Below are positions 2-10,927 of a stretch of DNA of 36,489 nt, one piece after another. The notes under the pieces are model-generated. The model was given only the letters and a program-made list of their open reading frames with translations, was not told where the DNA came from and ran no database searches. This DNA is from a virus, in the IMG/VR virus record IMGVR_UViG_3300021185_001537, positions 1 to 36,489 of that record, one strand, 5' to 3'. Each line of letters begins with the position of its first letter. Position 1 is the stretch's first letter. The position numbers were made by a program, and so were the translations under genes.

Positions 2-130
2 TCAGGTAGTGATGGAGATTTCCAGTTCACTCAGGATATGACTACAACTTGTACTAGTGCTTGTAATGGCGTAATCAATGTGGAGTTAGACAGCGAAAAT
101 GCATCAGTTAGTATTAAACAAACCGACTAA
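2..130 (+). CDS. Curlin-repeat-like secreted protein, C-terminal fragment
   Basis: The reading frame is open from the window edge and ends at TAA 128-130, giving the last 42 residues of a protein whose start lies outside. The tail holds two cysteines in a TCTSAC stretch and ends in VSIKQTD. This resembles the C-terminus of the gene at 1280-2170, which has FDLNQN, two Cys clusters and a terminal CSVTVNQNN. Alternating beta-strand residues with a conserved Gln are typical of curlin (CsgA/CsgB-type) repeats, so I read it as a paralogue of that protein. The next gene starts inside it at 99, a 32-nt overlap. Only the C-terminus is visible, so the family call is tentative. Confidence 0.55.
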   Translation, partial: SGSDGDFQFTQDMTTTCTSACNGVINVELDSENASVSIKQTD

Positions 131-1271
131 ATTATTAGTCGCAGTTTTACTGATTGCAATAGGAAATATATATGCCGCTGATTCACAGGCAATTGGCGGC
201 GTGTTTGAGCAAAGTGGTAAGCCTGGTAGTATTGTTAGGACCACAGGCGAAGAATTAACAGCAAACATAGATACAGGCATACAGAGTTACGATAACGTAG
301 AAACAGAAAACGGCAGACTTAAAATAAAGTTTGTAGACGAAACACAAATTAGTTTAACAGAGCATACACTAGTAGAAATTACTGAATATGTGTATGACCC
401 AAATCCAAGCAATAGTAAAATGGCAATGAATTTTGTGCAAGGGACTGCAAGATTTGCCACAGGAGGATTGGGATTAGTACCAAGAGAAAATATACAGATA
501 CAAACTCCTACTGCAAGTATAGGCATTAGGGGAACTGACTTTACTACCACAGTTGACGAACTGGGTAGAAGTTTAGTTATTTTGTTACCAGATGCCAACT
601 GTACGGATACGGTTAAATTAGAACAAGGATGTAGGCCATCTGGTAGTATATCAGTCAGTAATGATGGCGGAACAGTTATACTTGAAGAAGCCTTTCAGGC
701 TGTAATGGTAAGTACATTTGAACAATCACCAACACAACCTGTAACATTAGTTGATTTGGATTTAAATCAAATAGACAATATGTTTATTGTCAGTAAGCCT
801 GAAGAAATTGTACAGGCAGAAGAAGAACAAGCAGACCAATTAAAAGGCGACGGTGGTTTATTGGACTTTAACGGATTAGACATAGACCTTTTAGAAATTG
901 AAGGTTTAGATGAACAAGCAGAACGAGAATTACAATTCACAGAATTAGACATAAACTTTTTAGATGTGGATTTTTTGAGAGACCTTTTAGAGGTTATAGA
1001 AGATGCAGATGCTTTAGGAGAGAAGGACGAAGGCGGTTCTGGAGACAGACTAGTAGATAGGGGATTTGGATTACAAGCAGATAACCAATTTAATATTATA
1101 CCGGACTTAAATGGAAGTGTATTCTTTTTAAGACAAGGTACTAACTATGTTAGTTTAAAAATTAAAAGAGGTCAAGCAGGACAAATAGAAATAAGTGATA
1201 AAGATTTAGGAGATACTGTAATGTGCCTTAATGAATGCGAAGGCATTTTTATAAGTATTACACAGGAATAA
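99..1271 (+). CDS. FecR-domain periplasmic protein
   Basis: A 390-residue protein with an N-terminal signal peptide: Lys near residue 11, a hydrophobic LLVAVLLIAIGNIYA core, and likely cleavage near residue 26. Residues about 40-165 match the FecR family: GSIVRTTGEEL, then ETENGRLKIKFVDETQISL, then TPTASIGIRGTDFTTTV, the classic end of the domain. In bacteria such proteins bind peptidoglycan or sense envelope signals, and are often encoded beside CHASE2 adenylate cyclases. The rest is acidic, rich in Leu-Asp (about 225-315), with a small beta-rich C-terminus containing CLNEC. It overlaps the preceding curlin-like gene by 32 nt and is followed 8 nt later by a second one. It is unusual cargo for a T4-like phage. 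The domain call is firm; the role is inferred. Confidence 0.8.
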   Translation: MHQLVLNKPTKLLVAVLLIAIGNIYAADSQAIGGVFEQSGKPGSIVRTTGEELTANIDTGIQSYDNVETENGRLKIKFVDETQISLTEHTLVEITEYVYDPNPSNSKMAMNFVQGTARFATGGLGLVPRENIQIQTPTASIGIRGTDFTTTVDELGRSLVILLPDANCTDTVKLEQGCRPSGSISVSNDGGTVILEEAFQAVMVSTFEQSPTQPVTLVDLDLNQIDNMFIVSKPEEIVQAEEEQADQLKGDGGLLDFNGLDIDLLEIEGLDEQAERELQFTELDINFLDVDFLRDLLEVIEDADALGEKDEGGSGDRLVDRGFGLQADNQFNIIPDLNGSVFFLRQGTNYVSLKIKRGQAGQIEISDKDLGDTVMCLNECEGIFISITQE

Positions 1272-1279
1272 ATAGTATT

Positions 1280-2170
1280 ATGAATATAGACAAAAGATTA
1301 AATGAGATGAAACCAAAAGATACACCATTATTAGTTCTGGGTTATATCATATTGGGTATGTTTTTATTAATACCTATGTCGGCACAGGCACAAGATAATG
1401 AAGTATTTTTAGGTAACATAAGTGGCGACAATTTAGAACTAGACATATTACAAGATGGTACTGATAACACAGTCACAGGTATAACAGAGTCTAGCCAATT
1501 TGTAGGTGACGACAATACCTTACACATTATGCAAATAGGTACTGGAAATTTGTTTGAAGGTAATTGGACTAGTGGTGGTACTAATCTTTTAAAAGTATTC
1601 CAAGGTGGCGGCGGTAATGATAATTTTGTTAGGTTAACAGGTTTTGGAACAAACAACACAGGAATTGTACTACAAGGTATGCATTGGGACGGAACTATTG
1701 ACGTAGATGAATACGGCGAACACGAAGCATATTGGACAGTAACAGGTGACTATAATGAGTTTTCTAGTTTTCAAACAGACACCAACCGAGGTAGTGGAAA
1801 TGGTGATAGTCATCACTTGGCAAATATAATTGATGGCGACTACAATGATGTTTGGCATAGGCAAAGAGGCAAAGCAGGGCACGACGGTTTTATAGAAATC
1901 ACAGGCGATTACAACGATGTAATTTTAGACCAAAAAGGCAGTGGTGGTAAAAAATGGGCAGATGTCGTTTTAGATGGCAATGGACATACTGTTGATATCA
2001 ATCAACGTGGTACAAATTATGCATCAGCAACAGTTGATTTGACATATGGTATAGGTGCTTACACATTTGATTTAAATCAAAATGTTTCATCATCAGCAGT
2101 AACTTATAGTCTTACAGGTATATGTAATAATGGAGGAGGCTGTTCAGTAACAGTAAACCAAAACAACTAA
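1280..2170 (+). CDS. Curlin-repeat-like secreted protein
   Basis: A 296-residue protein with a signal peptide: a hydrophobic LLVLGYIILGMFLLIPMSAQAQ stretch, cleavage likely after AQA. The mature part repeats a strand-turn pattern with Gln and Asn/Gly: LDILQDGTDNTV, LHIMQIGTGNLF, LKVFQGGGGNDNFV, VDINQRGTNYASATV, FDLNQN and CSVTVNQNN. This follows the Q-x-G-x-x-N signature of curlin repeats that stack into amyloid-like beta solenoids. I chose ATG 1280 over the in-frame ATG 1235 because it follows the FecR stop and puts the signal sequence near the start. The stop overlaps the next ATG as TAATG. The likely product is a secreted fibre subunit; a phage role (exit, superinfection exclusion, host surface change) is unknown. 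Confidence 0.65.
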   Translation: MNIDKRLNEMKPKDTPLLVLGYIILGMFLLIPMSAQAQDNEVFLGNISGDNLELDILQDGTDNTVTGITESSQFVGDDNTLHIMQIGTGNLFEGNWTSGGTNLLKVFQGGGGNDNFVRLTGFGTNNTGIVLQGMHWDGTIDVDEYGEHEAYWTVTGDYNEFSSFQTDTNRGSGNGDSHHLANIIDGDYNDVWHRQRGKAGHDGFIEITGDYNDVILDQKGSGGKKWADVVLDGNGHTVDINQRGTNYASATVDLTYGIGAYTFDLNQNVSSSAVTYSLTGICNNGGGCSVTVNQNN

Positions 2171-2325
2171 TGAAAGACTTCCAATGGTTACTAAAACCGA
2201 TAAGTAATAAGAGTAAACAAATACGTGAAGAAGGCAAAAAGAAAGATGCCTTAAGAGCAGGAGCAAAAATAAGATGGAATACGGCGGCGACGGAAATTGT
2301 CCAGAAGAATTTGAAATCTGTTTAG
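2170..2325 (+). CDS. Small basic protein, unknown
   Basis: A 51-codon reading frame whose ATG overlaps the stop of the curlin-like gene as TAATG, a junction used repeatedly in this genome (3834, 16437, 22681, 27793). The product begins MKDFQWLLKP and has a Lys/Arg-rich middle (KQIREEGKKKDALRAGAKIRW). It has no signal peptide and no recognised domain. Its last 52 nt overlap the gene at 2274 in a different frame. The coupled start argues for translation. Alternatively it is the N-terminus of the next protein, separated by a frameshift. It is too short for the codon pattern to be decisive. Confidence 0.45.
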   Translation: MKDFQWLLKPISNKSKQIREEGKKKDALRAGAKIRWNTAATEIVQKNLKSV

Positions 2326-2561
2326 ATACAGAATCATACGATGAACTTATCGATATGATGGACGAAGCGGGTGTAGAAATGACCGGCGAATTAGACTTGC
2401 AACCATTAGGCGATGCTGAAGCAGTTGCAAACTTTACCTGGGAAATACTATTTTTAACTCCATGGGAATTGGCCTACATAGCACTTCCAATGAGTGTGTT
2501 AGCATTTTACGGCTTATCCATATATGCCGTGTTCAAATGGCTCCAAAAAAAGTTTTCTTAA
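2274..2561 (+). CDS. Small acidic protein with a C-terminal membrane helix
   Basis: A 95-residue product. The N-terminal two thirds are acidic (EEFEICLDTESYDELIDMMDEAG), with Cys at 9 and 16. The C-terminus has a hydrophobic stretch (LAYIALPMSVLAFYGLSIYAVF, about 67-88) followed by KWLQKKFS, so it is probably a tail-anchored inner-membrane protein with the acidic part outside and the Lys-rich end in the cytoplasm. It lies at the end of the FecR/curlin gene string, just upstream of a strong promoter. No family is recognised. The ATG lies inside the preceding small frame, with no good Shine-Dalgarno. Confidence 0.5.
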   Translation: MEYGGDGNCPEEFEICLDTESYDELIDMMDEAGVEMTGELDLQPLGDAEAVANFTWEILFLTPWELAYIALPMSVLAFYGLSIYAVFKWLQKKFS

Positions 2562-2565
2562 TAGG

Positions 2566-2594
2566 TTGACAAACCTTTAAATATCTACTATAAT
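2566..2594 (+). promoter_or_regulatory. Sigma70-type promoter
   Basis: TTGACA at 2566-2571, exactly 17 nt, then TATAAT at 2589-2594: both hexamers are consensus. It sits directly after the stop at 2561. A start about 7 nt downstream would be near 2601, one base before the ATG at 2602. The -35 is preceded by AGG, as in the promoters at 31869, 34807 and 35967. Confidence 0.85.
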
Positions 2595-2601
2595 ATTCGT
2601 A

Positions 2602-2784
2602 ATGAAACATATGATCAAGTGGCTGAAGATAACAGCCGGCATAAATTTATACTTGTCTGTAGTTATGACATTTGTGTTCTTAACACTTTTGTTTGCAATA
2701 GTATCTGACTATAATTTAACTAATGCAGATGAGTATGTAAGGTTCTTAATAAAAGAAGAACTTAATAATCCAGGTGATCAGTAA
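2602..2784 (+). CDS. Small membrane protein, unknown
   Basis: A 60-residue protein with one strong membrane helix (about 12-34: AGINLYLSVVMTFVFLTLLFAIV) between a basic N-terminus (MKHMIKWLK) and an acidic C-terminus (NADEYVRFLIKEELNNPGD), so probably N-in. It starts within a base or two of the start site predicted from the consensus promoter at 2566-2594, and there is no Shine-Dalgarno, so its mRNA may be leaderless. It overlaps the next gene by 11 nt. The size and fold would suit an early host-takeover or superinfection-immunity membrane protein, but nothing identifies it. Confidence 0.6.
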   Translation: MKHMIKWLKITAGINLYLSVVMTFVFLTLLFAIVSDYNLTNADEYVRFLIKEELNNPGDQ

Positions 2785-3076
2785 GTATACGAATAGCCTT
2801 AGGCTATACGCAAGTGTTATTATATCAGCACATATACTTGCATTCTTTATATACTTTCCAATAATATCCTTTGTACTTTTTGTGACATGTTGGCCAGTCT
2901 TATATGTAACAATGCTATATGCAATGGTGTATAATTATTGCAAACAAGAAGGCATAGACTTTCCTTACGAAAAAGGACTACCATTATGTGAAGCAGACAT
3001 ACATATGACACCATTCTATTACCTAAACGATTACGACCCATTTATTGATTATCTAGATTATGACCCACGTTACTAA
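2774..3076 (+). CDS. Small two-helix membrane protein (paralogue 1)
   Basis: A GTG-started 100-residue frame beginning VISKYTNSLRLYASVIISAH. Two hydrophobic stretches (about 12-35 and 38-56) make it a two-helix membrane protein, followed by a polar tail rich in Tyr and Asp (NDYDPFIDYLDYDPRY). Its N-terminus closely matches that of the next gene (VTKYTNSLRTYAIAIVSVH), so the pair is a tandem duplication. It overlaps both neighbours (11 and 17 nt), suggesting translational coupling. GTG is the only start compatible with the conserved KYTNSLR block. Function unknown. Confidence 0.6.
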   Translation: MISKYTNSLRLYASVIISAHILAFFIYFPIISFVLFVTCWPVLYVTMLYAMVYNYCKQEGIDFPYEKGLPLCEADIHMTPFYYLNDYDPFIDYLDYDPRY

Positions 3077-3368
3077 GTACACAAACAGTTTGAGAACGTA
3101 TGCTATTGCTATAGTAAGTGTTCATCTTGTAGCACTAGGGTGGTTGTTTCCAGACATACTAATATTGATAGTTTGTCCTCCAGCAATGTTTTATTTGCTT
3201 TTCTTATATTGTGAATTGATGTACACAATAGAAGTTGGATATAGAGAAACACTCTTGAAAAAAATACGTGAAACAGATGACGATATTACAAAAGATATTT
3301 TAAATTGGGAATTGCTATTACATGAAGAACATAGTTTATTTGGAAGTTCGCCAAGCGATCGGTTTTAA
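3060..3368 (+). CDS. Small two-helix membrane protein (paralogue 2)
   Basis: A 102-residue protein, MTHVTKYTNSLRTYAIAIVSVHLV, homologous over its N-terminal half to the gene before it. Two hydrophobic segments (about 13-32 and 34-54) are followed by a charged, probably cytoplasmic C-terminus (RETLLKKIRETDDDITKDILNWELLLHEEH). The ATG lies inside the 3' end of paralogue 1 (17-nt overlap). The tails of the paralogues have diverged completely while the helix region is kept, so the membrane part probably carries the shared function, which I cannot name. Confidence 0.6.
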   Translation: MTHVTKYTNSLRTYAIAIVSVHLVALGWLFPDILILIVCPPAMFYLLFLYCELMYTIEVGYRETLLKKIRETDDDITKDILNWELLLHEEHSLFGSSPSDRF

Positions 3369-3381
3369 ATTAAGTAAAAAC

Positions 3382-3389
3382 GATAAATA
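3382..3389 (+). promoter_or_regulatory. T4-type late promoter box GATAAATA
   Basis: GATAAATA fits the NATAAATA late-promoter consensus of T4-like cyanophages (TATAAATA in T4), read by the gp55 late sigma factor. It lies 52 nt upstream of the lipoprotein ATG at 3442, giving a leader with AAGGAG. Confidence 0.6.
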
Positions 3390-3441
3390 TATATGTTATA
3401 ATAACAGATGGTTTTATAACACTTATATATAAGGAGACGAT

Positions 3442-3726
3442 ATGAAAAATCTAATTTCGTTCTTCGTAGTAGTATTCAGTTTTGGAATTACTAGTTGTGC
3501 CTCAGTTGGGGGTGCCTGGAATGCCGGAACAGAAATTGTCACAGGAACAGTAGACTCAGTAGTTGGCGGAGCCGCTACAATGGCAGTCGCTATTACTGAC
3601 GATGCAAGAAACATTGCAGACGTAACTATTGATACAGCACAAGGTGTTGTTAAAACAGTTGCAGAAAACGTTGACAAACAAACTGACGAACTTCAAGAAG
3701 AAAAAGAAGCACCAAAAAAGGACTAA
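3442..3726 (+). CDS. Lipoprotein with a candidate -1 frameshift extension
   Basis: The zero-frame product is 94 residues: a type II signal peptide (MKNLISFFVVVFSFGITSC, lipobox ITSC with Cys19), then a Gly/Ala/Val-rich region of amphipathic strands or helices (VTGTVDSVVGGAATMAVAI), then an acidic/Lys C-terminus EEKEAPKKD. AAGGAG lies just upstream of ATG 3442, and a late box lies at 3382. Near its end the gene carries A AAA AAG, a spacer and a stem-loop, so part of the translation may pass into the -1 frame and give about 131 residues (see 3714-3758 and 3720-3836). It is probably anchored in the outer membrane or inner-membrane periplasmic face. It is small and glycine-rich like entericidin-type lipoproteins, but not clearly of that family. 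Confidence 0.75.
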   Translation: MKNLISFFVVVFSFGITSCASVGGAWNAGTEIVTGTVDSVVGGAATMAVAITDDARNIADVTIDTAQGVVKTVAENVDKQTDELQEEKEAPKKD

Positions 3727-3758
3727 GCCTTTTCTCTGGTCGCAAAGAGGAAAAGGCT
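3714..3758 (+). promoter_or_regulatory. Candidate programmed -1 ribosomal frameshift signal
   Basis: A AAA AAG (3714-3720) is in the correct phase of the lipoprotein gene (codons CCA AAA AAG GAC TAA). A 5-nt spacer, GACTA, is followed by a stem: 3726-3734 pairs with 3750-3758 (9 bp), plus 3 bp beyond a bulged G3749, closing an 8-nt loop (GGTCGCAA). This is the same heptamer and geometry as the E. coli dnaX frameshift site. The stem lacks a downstream T-run, so it is not an obvious intrinsic terminator. Confidence 0.65.
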
Positions 3759-3836
3759 AGTAAGGACAGTGATATAAAACTTTTAATTGATCAAATTAAA
3801 AGATACTGCTCTGAAAATCCTAAGGAGTGCGAATAA
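3720..3836 (+). other. -1 frame extension of the lipoprotein gene
   Basis: After slippage on A AAA AAG, reading continues GGA CTA AGC for 38 codons to TAA 3834-3836: GLSLFSGRKEEKASKDSDIK, then LLIDQIKRYC and SENPKECE. Two features suggest real coding. First, the stop overlaps the next ATG as TAATG, the junction this genome uses between true neighbours. Second, its end RYCSENPKEC resembles YYCDNNPEIC near the mature N-terminus of the next protein. The extension has no plausible start of its own upstream of its own Shine-Dalgarno-less beginning. An alternative is a sequencing or mutational frameshift in a formerly single gene. Confidence 0.6.
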
Positions 3837-4303
3837 TGAACAAAGCGGCGTTTTTAATAATGTCGCTTTTTTCTTTGAAAATATCATCTTTAGATCTCAC
3901 ATATAATCCCCCACTAGATCCGTATTACTGCGATAACAATCCTGAAATTTGTAAAAAGATAGAAACTAGTAACATGCCAATGTTTACTATAACTCCACGT
4001 GCCACTAATGGACAATGGGTAGCATTTTGGACATTTCAATTATTAGATATCTATTCAACATCACGAGCATTAAAGTACGATTGTATAAAAGAAATAAATC
4101 CAATATTTACAGAATCGCCTAGTGATGCTAGATTGGTACTTACAAAAACACTTTTACTGGTACCTGGCTTAGTATACGACGATTACTGGAAAGAAGTCAC
4201 ACCCGACGAACTCAATGATACTAATATGGTATACTCAGTAGTTGTTGCAAATAACTTTAGATTACTAAAAGATGCCAAGCAAGAATGCAATAAAATACGA
4301 TAA
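3836..4303 (+). CDS. Secreted or membrane protein, unknown
   Basis: A 155-residue protein. I use ATG 3836 rather than in-frame GTG 3827 because AAGGAG (in CCTAAGGAGTGC) is correctly placed for it and the ATG overlaps the extension stop (TAATG). Residues 1-19 (MNKAAFLIMSLFSLKISSL) look like a signal peptide. Then comes YYCDNNPEICKKIE, sharing the YC-x2-NP-x2-C motif with the frameshift extension upstream. The segment WTFQLLDIYSTSRALKYDCIKEINPIF, followed by a hydrophobic TKTLLLVPGLVY, resembles small membrane proteins with an LxDxxST...E-x-NP pattern. It is probably exported or membrane-associated, and a partner of the upstream lipoprotein. Function unknown. Confidence 0.6.
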   Translation: MNKAAFLIMSLFSLKISSLDLTYNPPLDPYYCDNNPEICKKIETSNMPMFTITPRATNGQWVAFWTFQLLDIYSTSRALKYDCIKEINPIFTESPSDARLVLTKTLLLVPGLVYDDYWKEVTPDELNDTNMVYSVVVANNFRLLKDAKQECNKIR

Positions 4304-4306
4304 ATA
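4299..4306 (+). promoter_or_regulatory. T4-type late promoter box GATAAATA (leaderless geometry)
   Basis: GATAAATA followed by 5 nt (ATACT) and then ATG 4312. In T4 late promoters transcription starts about 6 nt after the box, which is the A of this ATG. No Shine-Dalgarno is present. The box overlaps the 3' end of the previous gene. Confidence 0.65.
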
Positions 4307-4311
4307 ATACT

Positions 4312-6342
4312 ATGAAATGGCTTTACAGCGGATGGGCGGTCGCCATCACTATAGTTTTATTAGCGGCTCTCAAGGTTGCCGATCCCATACCACTTCAAAG
4401 TCTGCGTTCGCAGACATTCGACTATTTACAACAACTTGATGAAGTAAAGCAAAGCAACGAAGTTGTTATTGTAAACATAGGCGAAAAGAGTTTACAACAA
4501 TGGGGACAATGGCCTTGGCCAAGGCAAAACTTTGCCCAACTAATTCATGACCTAAGGCAAAAGAATGCCGGAATGATAGGGTTGAATGTTATGTTTCCAG
4601 AAGCAGATCGATTTGGAGGTGACGAAACATTAGCCAGTTGGATAAAAGGCAACGGCATAGTTTTATCACAGACACCAAGTACAAGAGGAATCAAAACGTC
4701 AGGTCCACATATTGGAACAGCAACAATAGGCCCAGTACCTGCTACCAATTACTTGCTAACATGGCCAAATTTGGTAACAAATATTACTGAGTTAGAATCA
4801 TTTGCTGAAGGCATAGGTGTTATAGCATCAGCACCACAACCGGACAACCAAACAAGAACATATCCATTAGCAATCGGAGTTGAAGGCAAAATATATCCTA
4901 GTTTTGCTATAGAAATGTTGCGTACATATACGCAGAAACCTAGTTATGTTTTAAAAACAAGTGAGATAGGTGTACAAGAATTTGCAGTACCTCCGTTTGA
5001 TCCAATCATTACACAACCAAATGGAACGGCATATATTAGATTTAATAACACATTCGAAGAAGTTGAATATGTTGATATAAACAGTTTACCAGATTTAGCA
5101 GGTAAGTTTGTTATTGTTGGTGTCACAGCAGAAGGTATAACAAACCCAGTACCAACACCTAAAGGTAACCTCTATCCACAGCACATACAGGGTCATATGC
5201 TACAGAATTTTGTAGATGGGTCCAATATAACCAGATCAGAATTATCTGCTGTTACAGAGCTTCTGTGTGCGTTGTTAGGCATGATTTTCATAGCCATAGC
5301 AGTTTATAACTCACCTGTATGGTTAAGTGGGCTAATTTTTGTGTTTTCTTTTGGCTGGGTAATAGGATGGAGCATTACAAGTTACCAAGAAAACCTCAAA
5401 TTATTCGACGCAACTTTTCCTGCTATAGCATTTTTATTAGTGTTTACACAATCGAGTTTTAATAACTTTTGGATACAATTTAAATTACGTGAACAAATTA
5501 AGAAACAATTTGAACATTATCTTGCTCCAGCAATGGTTAAAAAGTTACAAAAGAATCCAGAACTGTTACAGTTAGGTGGTGACACAAAAACTATGACATA
5601 TTTATTTTCGGACATACGTGGCTTTACACCAATATCAGAGCAGTTTAAAACAGATCCACAAGGGTTAGGAAAACTTATAAACAGATACATGACGCCAATG
5701 ACAGATTTAGTTATGCGTAAAGAAGGTACAATAGACAAGTATATAGGTGACGCCTTAATGGCAATTTGGGGAGCACCACTTGATATCGACAACCATGCTC
5801 AATTGGCAGTAGAAACAGCACAAGAAATGGAAGTAGAACTTGCTAGATTAAATAAAGAACTTAAAGCAGATGGCTTAATGGAATTAGGTGTTGGCATAGG
5901 CATCAACACAGGCGATGCAGTTGTAGGTAATATGGGTAGTAACCAACGTTTTGATTATACAGTATTAGGTGATAGTGTAAACTTAGCGGCAAGACTAGAA
6001 GCACAAACAAAAGAGTATGGCGTGTTTTTTATGTTTACAGAGCATACATTAAAACAAATCACAATACCAGAAAATTTAACTATGCTAGATAAGATTGCAG
6101 TTAAAGGACAAACAGCACCAGTAACAATTTATACTATACTAAATGATCACAAGTATGCAAGAGTTGTAAACAGAATGGTAGATGCATATCAAAACAGAGA
6201 ATGGGCAACTTGCTCAAATCAAATAGAGATTATAAAAGATCATAAATGGAATGATACACTTGCAGATCTGTATGCAGAAAGAATTAAACAGCCTATGCCT
6301 ATAGGTGATTGGGACGGAGTAGAACGAAAGACTTCTAAATAA
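4312..6342 (+). CDS. CHASE2-domain class III adenylate cyclase
   Basis: A 676-residue membrane cyclase predicted to make cAMP from ATP. An N-terminal helix (about 8-22) is followed by a periplasmic CHASE2 sensor (about 30-300: LRSQTFDYLQQL, GQWPWPRQNFAQLI, then VGVTAEG), three membrane helices (about 312-385) and a cytoplasmic cyclase domain (about 420-615). Catalytic residues are present: metal-binding D434 (FSDIRGFT) and D480 (KYIGDALMAIWG), purine-site K476 and T550/D554 (YTVLGD), and N557 and R561 (NLAAR). The domain therefore looks active and adenine-type, although cyclase specificity from motifs alone is imperfect. A late box 5 nt before the ATG suggests late, leaderless expression. FecR proteins often accompany CHASE2 cyclases in bacteria, as here. 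I know of no well-studied phage equivalent. Confidence 0.9.
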   Translation: MKWLYSGWAVAITIVLLAALKVADPIPLQSLRSQTFDYLQQLDEVKQSNEVVIVNIGEKSLQQWGQWPWPRQNFAQLIHDLRQKNAGMIGLNVMFPEADRFGGDETLASWIKGNGIVLSQTPSTRGIKTSGPHIGTATIGPVPATNYLLTWPNLVTNITELESFAEGIGVIASAPQPDNQTRTYPLAIGVEGKIYPSFAIEMLRTYTQKPSYVLKTSEIGVQEFAVPPFDPIITQPNGTAYIRFNNTFEEVEYVDINSLPDLAGKFVIVGVTAEGITNPVPTPKGNLYPQHIQGHMLQNFVDGSNITRSELSAVTELLCALLGMIFIAIAVYNSPVWLSGLIFVFSFGWVIGWSITSYQENLKLFDATFPAIAFLLVFTQSSFNNFWIQFKLREQIKKQFEHYLAPAMVKKLQKNPELLQLGGDTKTMTYLFSDIRGFTPISEQFKTDPQGLGKLINRYMTPMTDLVMRKEGTIDKYIGDALMAIWGAPLDIDNHAQLAVETAQEMEVELARLNKELKADGLMELGVGIGINTGDAVVGNMGSNQRFDYTVLGDSVNLAARLEAQTKEYGVFFMFTEHTLKQITIPENLTMLDKIAVKGQTAPVTIYTILNDHKYARVVNRMVDAYQNREWATCSNQIEIIKDHKWNDTLADLYAERIKQPMPIGDWDGVERKTSK

Positions 6343-9874: not shown

Positions 9875-9882
9875 TATTTATC
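9875..9882 (-). promoter_or_regulatory. Late promoter box GATAAATA, minus strand
   Basis: GATAAATA-GTACATT-ATG on the minus strand, 7 nt from the gp14 start codon. It lies back to back with the plus-strand tRNA promoter at 9898-9926. Confidence 0.65.
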
Positions 9883-9935: not shown

Positions 9936-10025
9936 GGAAAGGTGGCTGAGCGGCTTAAAGCACTTCCCTGCTAAGGAAGAGTACGGGTAACTGTACCGAG
10001 AGTTCGAATCTCTCCCTTTCCGCCA
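9936..10025 (+). tRNA. tRNA-Ser (GCU)
   Basis: A 90-nt class II tRNA with a long variable arm. The acceptor GGAAAGG pairs with CCTTTCC, the discriminator is G and CCA is encoded. The anticodon stem CTTCC/GGAAG encloses loop CTGCTAA, anticodon GCT, reading AGC/AGU. The T-arm is GAGAGTTCGAATCTCTC. It is the first gene after the 9898 promoter. Confidence 0.95.
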
Positions 10026-10077
10026 AATGAGTCAACAGCACTTGGACTCTCAAAATAGTGCATTAGTGTTGATAACC

Positions 10078-10152
10078 GGTCCGGTAGTTAAACGGTTATA
10101 ATTCCGCCCTGTCACGGCGGTGTTCGGGGTTCGATTCCCCGTCGGACCGCCA
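10078..10152 (+). tRNA. tRNA-Asp (GUC)
   Basis: A 75-nt tRNA. Acceptor GGTCCG pairs with CGGACC, CCA is encoded, and the anticodon stem CCGCC/GGCGG has loop CTGTCAC, anticodon GTC. The T-arm is CGGGGTTCGATTCCCCG. The 52-nt spacer before it contains a GCACT...AGTGC inverted repeat that may help processing. Confidence 0.95.
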
Positions 10153-10156
10153 GTTT

Positions 10157-10233
10157 AGGCGATTAGCTCAGTTGGCTAGAGCACCTCGTTTACACCGAGG
10201 GGGTCGGCGGTTCGAATCCGTCATCGCCTACCA
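10157..10233 (+). tRNA. tRNA-Val (UAC)
   Basis: A 77-nt tRNA. Acceptor AGGCGAT pairs with ATCGCCT, discriminator A, CCA encoded. The anticodon stem CCTCG/CGAGG has loop TTTACAC, anticodon TAC. It lies only 4 nt after tRNA-Asp, so they are processed from one transcript. Confidence 0.95.
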
Positions 10234-10243
10234 GAGTTTAATT

Positions 10244-10492
10244 ATGCATTTACCTTACGCAAAATTTCGTTTACCAACTGGAGGAGCCGGCCTTCCTGCT
10301 TCTATGCATAAAAATAAAATAGCAAAAAGTGTTAGAGAATGGGCAGAACCTAAGGATATTGAAGTAGAATTTGAAACAGAAGGCTATACATTAAACGTTA
10401 GGTTTGAATCAAAAGACGATTTAATGATGTTCAAACTGTCCTACAATACCGAAACGGCACCATTTTGTTCATATGAAATCTTTTACTACTAA
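10244..10492 (+). CDS. Small protein between tRNAs, unknown
   Basis: An 82-residue protein starting at ATG 10244 (MHLPYAKFRLPTGGAGLPAS); the frame is open further upstream, but that would run through tRNA-Val. It is a mixed alpha/beta sequence (VEFETEGYTLNVRFESKDDLMMFKLSYN, then FCSYEIFYY) with no signal or membrane helix and no recognised domain. It is probably co-transcribed with the tRNAs from 9898. Its stop overlaps an AATAAATA box at 10491. Confidence 0.6.
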   Translation: MHLPYAKFRLPTGGAGLPASMHKNKIAKSVREWAEPKDIEVEFETEGYTLNVRFESKDDLMMFKLSYNTETAPFCSYEIFYY

Positions 10493-10498
10493 TAAATA
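10491..10498 (+). promoter_or_regulatory. Possible late promoter box AATAAATA before tRNA-Gly
   Basis: Matches NATAAATA and lies 9 nt before the 5' end of tRNA-Gly. The A/T-rich match could be chance because it overlaps a TAA stop, but it could give the downstream tRNAs and the Lys-rich protein a second, late promoter. Confidence 0.35.
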
Positions 10499-10507
10499 TA
10501 CAACGAT

Positions 10508-10582
10508 GCGAGTGTCGTATAACGGTTATTACAAGACGTTGCCAACGTTTAGATGACGGTTCGATTCCGTCCACCCGCTCCA
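10508..10582 (+). tRNA. tRNA-Gly (GCC)
   Basis: A 75-nt tRNA. Acceptor GCGAGTG pairs with CACCCGC with one A-C mismatch at position 4-69, then T and encoded CCA. The anticodon stem AGACG/CGTTT encloses loop TTGCCAA, anticodon GCC. The T-arm is GACGGTTCGATTCCGTC. The acceptor mismatch and the G-T pair in the anticodon stem make it slightly degenerate. Confidence 0.9.
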
Positions 10583-10613
10583 AAACGATACAAAGTATCA
10601 GGAAAAGATTAAA

Positions 10614-10844
10614 ATGGTAAAAACAAAAACAACCAAGAAAGCAGTTGCAAAAAAAGTAACTAAAAAAGCACCAGCAAATAAGTTTTGGTTCGAAGACGTT
10701 GGTGACAACGTAATGAGAAATGCAGAACAAATTAGTGCAAACATTCAAAAGAATGCAGAAGAAATAAGTGCAAACATTAGGGCAAATGCTGATAGAATTG
10801 GTGACAATATGAAAGCATACCTAAATAGAAATTTAAGTAAGTAA
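10614..10844 (+). CDS. Lys-rich protein with 11-residue repeats
   Basis: A 76-residue protein. Residues 1-22 are a basic, Lys/Ala/Thr tail (KTKTTKKAVAKKVTKKAP) resembling histone H1 or HU-tail sequences. Residues 36-68 hold three 11-residue repeats (NAEQISANIQK, NAEEISANIRA, NADRIGDNMKA), each a three-turn amphipathic helix, as in lipid-binding or coiled-coil proteins. It could be a nucleic-acid- or membrane-associated accessory protein, and I cannot choose between these. It sits between tRNA-Gly and tRNA-Ala, probably in the same transcript, with GGAAAAG as a weak Shine-Dalgarno. Confidence 0.65.
   Translation: MVKTKTTKKAVAKKVTKKAPANKFWFEDVGDNVMRNAEQISANIQKNAEEISANIRANADRIGDNMKAYLNRNLSK
10719..10817 (+). 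repeat. Three in-frame 33-bp repeats
   Basis: Units at 10719-10751, 10752-10784 and 10785-10817 encode the 11-residue repeats. The first two are close in sequence (AATGCAGAA...AGTGCAAACATT) and the third is more diverged. Confidence 0.75.
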
Positions 10845-10851
10845 ATTCAAA

Positions 10852-10927
10852 GGGGGTATAGCTCAGTTGGGAGAGCGACTGGTTTGCAACCAGTAGGTCG
10901 TAGGTTCGATCCCTATTACCTCCACCA
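10852..10927 (+). tRNA. tRNA-Ala (UGC)
   Basis: A 76-nt tRNA. Acceptor GGGGGTA pairs with TACCTCC (one G-T), discriminator A, CCA encoded. The anticodon stem ACTGG/CCAGT has loop TTTGCAA, anticodon TGC. It is the last of the five tRNAs. Confidence 0.95.

Follow-up and report, generated by a model that had tools for sequence, protein, structure and literature searches.

This locus raises the question of whether one small phage gene is decoded into two proteins, a short lipoprotein and a longer form with an added tail. The window, meaning the whole stretch of 36,489 nucleotides that was analysed, carries on its plus strand (the strand of every feature given below from 99 to 6342) a lipoprotein gene of 94 codons at 3442..3726, preceded by the Shine-Dalgarno sequence AAGGAG at 3431..3436 and ending CCA AAA AAG GAC TAA. 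A first-pass annotation, made from the letters of the window, had read this ending as a programmed -1 ribosomal frameshift site.

The lipoprotein gene and its 3' end

The predicted product fits a bacterial lipoprotein. It has a signal peptide with the lipobox SCAS at residues 18-21, and Cys19 (3496-3498) is invariant in the 44 aligned members of the family. AlphaFold gave an all-helix model of the short form at low confidence (pLDDT 60). The lipoprotein has no usable match in Pfam, PHROG or NCBIfam, with none in PHROG better than E 0.01, and a PDB sequence search with it returned nothing credible. An entericidin-like small lipoprotein was rejected, as 0 of the 44 members match the Pfam entericidin model. 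A u-spanin was rejected too, the zero-frame tail and the extension both being free of hydrophobic stretches of transmembrane length, and so was a tail assembly chaperone of the lambda G/GT type, the product being a secreted lipoprotein encoded outside the tail block.

The slippery heptamer A_AAA_AAG is at 3714-3720, in the phase of the zero frame, and the zero-frame stop (3724-3726) comes 3 nt after it. The -1 frame is open for 38 codons (3720-3833; 3720..3836 with its stop), and its stop at 3834-3836 overlaps the ATG of the next gene (3836) as TAATG. The coordinates that the first-pass annotation had given all hold, and the four places where it had pointed out the same TAATG junction (2168, 16437, 22681 and 27793) all exist. 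The longer form that it had proposed would have 93 + 38 = 131 residues, with a junction peptide such as the one that spans ...APKKGLSLFSGR, and would end in a tail with two cysteines (YCSENPKEC, Cys codons 3807-3809 and 3828-3830); a Cys-pair extension of this kind is predicted in 91 relatives.

The stem claimed to follow the heptamer was also recovered: when nt 3721-3800 were folded, a hairpin at 3726-3758, starting 5-6 nt past the heptamer, was predicted at -19.1 kcal/mol with a z-score of -2.7. In ten close relatives 96.3% of the cells of the helix are paired, with compensatory changes, which is better than all slid controls, and the covariation is 0.279 vs 0.145 in shuffled alignments. Across 56 distinct downstream regions, whose stem sequences are quite different, the mean z-score is -2.1 against codon-shuffled controls, and it is uneven, being near zero in some clades. 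Stimulatory structures usually begin 5-8 nt downstream of the heptamer (PMC4066793), and the predicted, covarying stem is placed accordingly. A match to the Rfam family mycoplasma_FSE at 3702-3786 was discarded as far under threshold (29.6 vs 88 bits, E 0.2).

Slip sites and extensions among relatives

IMG/VR was searched with the lipoprotein, a profile of the fused product, the extension alone and two further zero-frame profiles, and when all the loci so fetched were scanned with an HMM, 109 distinct members of the family were obtained. Of these, 91 combine a -1 extension that holds two cysteines with a heptamer that is in phase and ends 0 or 3 nt short of the zero-frame stop; 14 (here called PRF-minus) lack both features, and no member has just one. 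The other four members (L149, L152, L154 and L155) carry the extension in the +1/-2 frame, with GAA AAG AAG TAA, or the same with TAG, in place of the heptamer; -2 or +1 frameshifting, or another mode of expression, is possible in these. A single uninterrupted frame, which would have counted against the first-pass annotation, was found in none of the 109, and even the search with the extension alone found no extension fused in the zero frame. The heptamer, stem and -1 frame are kept while the zero-frame stop stays, which is the outcome that the first-pass annotation had set as its own check.

Since the 109 rows are related, the Fisher value for this co-occurrence is not a probability, and the tree, built on only 85 columns and with many unresolved forks, is the better guide. 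It needs four changes to account for the PRF-minus state, and the 14 PRF-minus members sit in several places, which suggests that the two features are gained or lost as a pair. Both features differ, for example, between the close relatives L130/L131, which have AAAAAAG, and L245/L248, which have AAACAGG and no extension.

The heptamer itself is A_AAA_AAG in 73 of the 91 members, G_GGA_AAG in 16 and C_CCA_AAA in 2. By parsimony the AAAAAAG group underwent 13 changes, at least 6 of them forced by starred branches, and phase and position hold throughout. As a background, 14 of 706 other ORFs of the fetched loci have any in-phase X_XXY_YYZ at one of these two distances (0 or 3 nt) from their stop, and the heptamer types used by the lipoprotein family were found at the same positions in 4 of those 706. 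The position of the heptamer in the lipoprotein family (91/109 vs 14/706) thus exceeds chance. The motifs on which -1 slippage is most efficient in E. coli are A_AAA_AAG, G_GGA_AAG and C_CCA_AAG (PMC4066793). An upstream SD-like stimulator is not conserved, any SD-like tetramer being found in 17 of 64 distinct loci, and the -1 frame is closed by a stop directly ahead of the heptamer in 21 of the 64.

The extension evolves, as judged from its substitutions, as a protein under purifying selection: pN/pS in the -1 frame is 0.26 for the main extension type, which includes that of the window, and 0.22 for the second, and the changes cluster at the third codon positions of this frame. These values contradict the absence of coding constraint that would have told against the frameshift. 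The extension, which has no transmembrane stretch and no family match, combines a basic and aromatic linker with a segment predicted to be amphipathic and, at the C terminus, the Cys pair YC-x2-NP-x-EC. The C, P, E and C of this motif do not vary within the main type; in other clades the tail differs (CSEFPQKC and CNETVQC are examples) and the Cys pair is kept. One claim of the first-pass annotation did not survive. It had likened RYCSENPKEC to YYCDNNPEIC in the next protein, and the resemblance is not conserved across relatives: the next protein of the closest relative (L001) reads YFCDNNLELC, and the next gene of L020, which has a similar start and position, is without any such motif.

Beyond IMG/VR, tblastn with three members against cultured phages gave no match, and a search of genome contigs gave no relatives. 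Profile A1 has no credible homologue in HTVC008M or Melnitz; its match in HTVC008M (57 residues, E 1.7e-4) falls within a frame of 687 codons where a putative tail tape measure is annotated, and was rejected.

Neighbouring genes and the leader RNA

Upstream of the lipoprotein gene in the window are genes for a FecR-domain protein of the phage curli cluster (99..1271, PF04773) and a curlin-repeat protein (1277..2170, PF07012), both with a C-terminal Cys pair. Downstream are the gene that shares the TAATG (3836..4303, 155 aa, with a weak sub-threshold match to DUF5658) and a CHASE2-adenylate/guanylate cyclase (4312..6342), identified by a CHASE2 match and by tblastn to the annotated HTVC008M and Melnitz cyclases. 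Among the first 24 contigs tested, CsgG is present on 12 and CHASE2 on 16, and in L073 CsgF is followed by CsgG, curlin, FecR, a second curlin-like protein and then the lipoprotein. Most often the gene is found near a phage curli / type VIII secretion and CHASE2-cyclase cluster. Such curli clusters are known from pelagimyophages and the methylophage Melnitz, and neither the lipoprotein nor frameshifting is mentioned in the papers that describe them (PMC7029224, PMC9004378, PMC9599517). The link to curli is a loose one: a contig of 110 kb, maybe a fragment (G009), has the putative frameshift gene at 84 kb and no CsgG or CHASE2.

Several further features of these loci were recorded. A Cys pair often ends the FecR and curlin-repeat proteins, as in CLNECEGIFISITQE and GICNNGGGCSVTVNQ (window 1190-1271 and 2080-2170; also L073, L058, L067 and L068), and it is possible that the C-terminal Cys pairs of FecR, curlin-repeat protein and extension are a shared disulfide feature. 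Two large, apparently secreted proteins are encoded downstream of the lipoprotein in several relatives; those of L073 (6583-8034 and 8016-11240) have 483 and 1074 aa and no Pfam match. Five tRNA genes are clustered at 9936-10924 of the window.

The leader of the lipoprotein gene contains a predicted RNA hairpin at 3395..3420, in which a 7-bp stem and a 3-bp upper stem, separated by a single bulged nucleotide, carry the loop AG[AU]UG. Among the 88 members with heptamer and extension whose leaders are long enough, 70 have it, for the most part 30-60 nt ahead of the start codon (further examples are L083 5926-5951 and L027 2931-2956), and the motif is absent from all 14 PRF-minus members. In an alignment of 35 hairpins 97.1% of cells are paired, 9 of 10 pairs have two-sided changes (110 cells vs 31 in shuffles), covariation is 0.88 vs 0.19 shuffled, and the bulged nucleotide is T in at least 90%; members were picked by the loop motif, so that the conservation of the loop is partly circular and the covariation of the stem is not. 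A covariance model (R1) matches once per genome, at the lipoprotein gene only, with a marginal match in G020 (E 0.4) as the exception; its sole match in the window is 3395-3420. No Rfam family exceeds its gathering threshold on the hairpin, which may serve as an operator in translation or stabilise the 5' end.

Just ahead of the hairpin, at 3382..3389, is the motif GATAAATA. It occurs 12 times in the window vs 3.6 expected, and 0 of 100 shuffles had as many. The sites lie mostly ahead of genes, at 3382, 4299, 11902, 15659, 17983, 20912, 24270, 27069, 30498 and 30515 on the plus strand and at 9882 and 17925 on the minus strand. Its resemblance to the T4 late promoter TATAAATA suggests a promoter role, and the hairpin starts where the +1 of a T4-like late promoter at 3382-3389 would be expected, near 3395. 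At four sites an ATG comes exactly 13 nt past the start of the motif; if GATAAATA is a T4-like late promoter, these would give leaderless late mRNAs.

Two proposed forms of the lipoprotein, rival readings and known systems

Comparison among the relatives strongly supports the frameshift reading of the first-pass annotation, and we put the probability that the lipoprotein gene makes two forms by -1 frameshifting on the heptamer at about 0.93. Heptamer, frame, stem and coding constraint are each borne out by the aligned sequences; that slippage occurs, and in what ratio, we infer. The product would be a small lipoprotein of the outer-membrane type. Most ribosomes would stop at 3724 and release the 94-aa form. 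The stem-loop 5-6 nt downstream would slow the ribosome on A_AAA_AAG, and in a fraction of cases the tRNA-Lys in the P and A sites would re-pair one base back, so that 38 further residues would be added to give the 131-aa form with its Cys-pair tail.

What the two forms do is far less certain. Both may be in the outer membrane, where the minority long form might dock by its disulfide-prone tail on a partner in the curli-like apparatus, a suggestion that we make tentatively. CsgG and CHASE2 are also found on contigs of PRF-minus members, so that the cluster does not depend on frameshifting, and for this reason the assignment of the long form to curli is one that we only infer. About equally plausible is that the frameshift is real and that both forms act at the outer membrane in lysis or superinfection exclusion and not in the curli apparatus. 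Phage lipoproteins are known in such roles, as spanins (PMC6139136) and Ltp-type exclusion proteins (PMC3952083), and the gene is also found away from CsgG (L106); on the other hand, the extension lacks a transmembrane stretch or family match that would point there, and many copies are in the CsgG-CHASE2 interval. More doubtful still is a doubly RNA-controlled switch, in which the leader hairpin, bound by a phage or host protein, would set the total amount of lipoprotein and the frameshift would set the share with a Cys-pair tail, anchoring the curli-like apparatus to the host outer membrane.

The remaining alternatives do without ribosomal frameshifting. The -1 region could be a separate small ORF with its own start, or be translated by coupling at the lipoprotein stop, and ATG, GTG or TTG codons do occur inside the extension of some members. 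These start-like codons, however, have no conserved place and are often near the Cys pair, while the open -1 frame of the window and of L036, L163, L040, L050, L054, L076, L077, L130 and L131 contains none. In L050 the -1 frame is moreover closed just before the heptamer, which on its sequence excludes independent initiation there; outside such loci it is unlikely. A separate ORF would also leave the in-phase heptamer of all 91 extension-bearing members unexplained, and overall we consider this reading very improbable. We think just as little of transcriptional slippage, by which RNA polymerase would slip on the run of six A within A_AAA_AAG and produce a mixed mRNA: GGGAAAG (16/91) and CCCAAAA (2/91) contain no long homopolymer, and the conserved phase and the downstream stem speak against it. 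For a record that is a single metagenomic contig, a frameshift from assembly or point mutation, or a pseudogene tail in decay, was worth considering. Assembly error is excluded by the 91 distinct sequences, drawn from many contigs and samples, that share the architecture, and purifying selection on the tail is contrary to decay; we give this account the lowest probability, next to nil.

The mechanism of the preferred reading, -1 frameshifting on the heptamer, would be canonical; what appears to be new, as far as we are aware, is the class of product and the leader RNA paired with it. In the papers searched, tail assembly chaperones are the main case of frameshifting in tailed dsDNA phages (PMC5009743, PMC10885494), and no earlier report of a frameshift in a phage lipoprotein was found among the open-access papers covered. 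A -1 site conserved in the gene of a secreted lipoprotein across many marine phages would add a product class. The family is also a natural comparative set, in which the slip sequence varies and phase and position hold, and it gives a starting point for work on the unexplained curli clusters of phages; a gene caller blind to frameshifts would truncate every member.

As in E. coli dnaX, A_AAA_AAG is followed at short spacing by a stem-loop and a stop codon is nearby. In dnaX the product of frameshifting is a truncated form, and an SD-like stimulator upstream takes part, whereas here frameshifting would lengthen a secreted lipoprotein and such a stimulator is not conserved. As in phage lambda G/GT, a gene of a dsDNA phage has a slip site near its 3' end and would yield short and extended forms, and G_GGA_AAG is the lambda heptamer. 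That motif is highly shift-prone in E. coli (PMC5009743). Unlike lambda G/GT, the gene described here has a lipoprotein signal and is outside the tail module, usually by curli and cyclase genes. Its surroundings are closest to the curli clusters of pelagimyophages and Melnitz, with CsgF, CsgG, curlin repeats, FecR and a cyclase around many copies.
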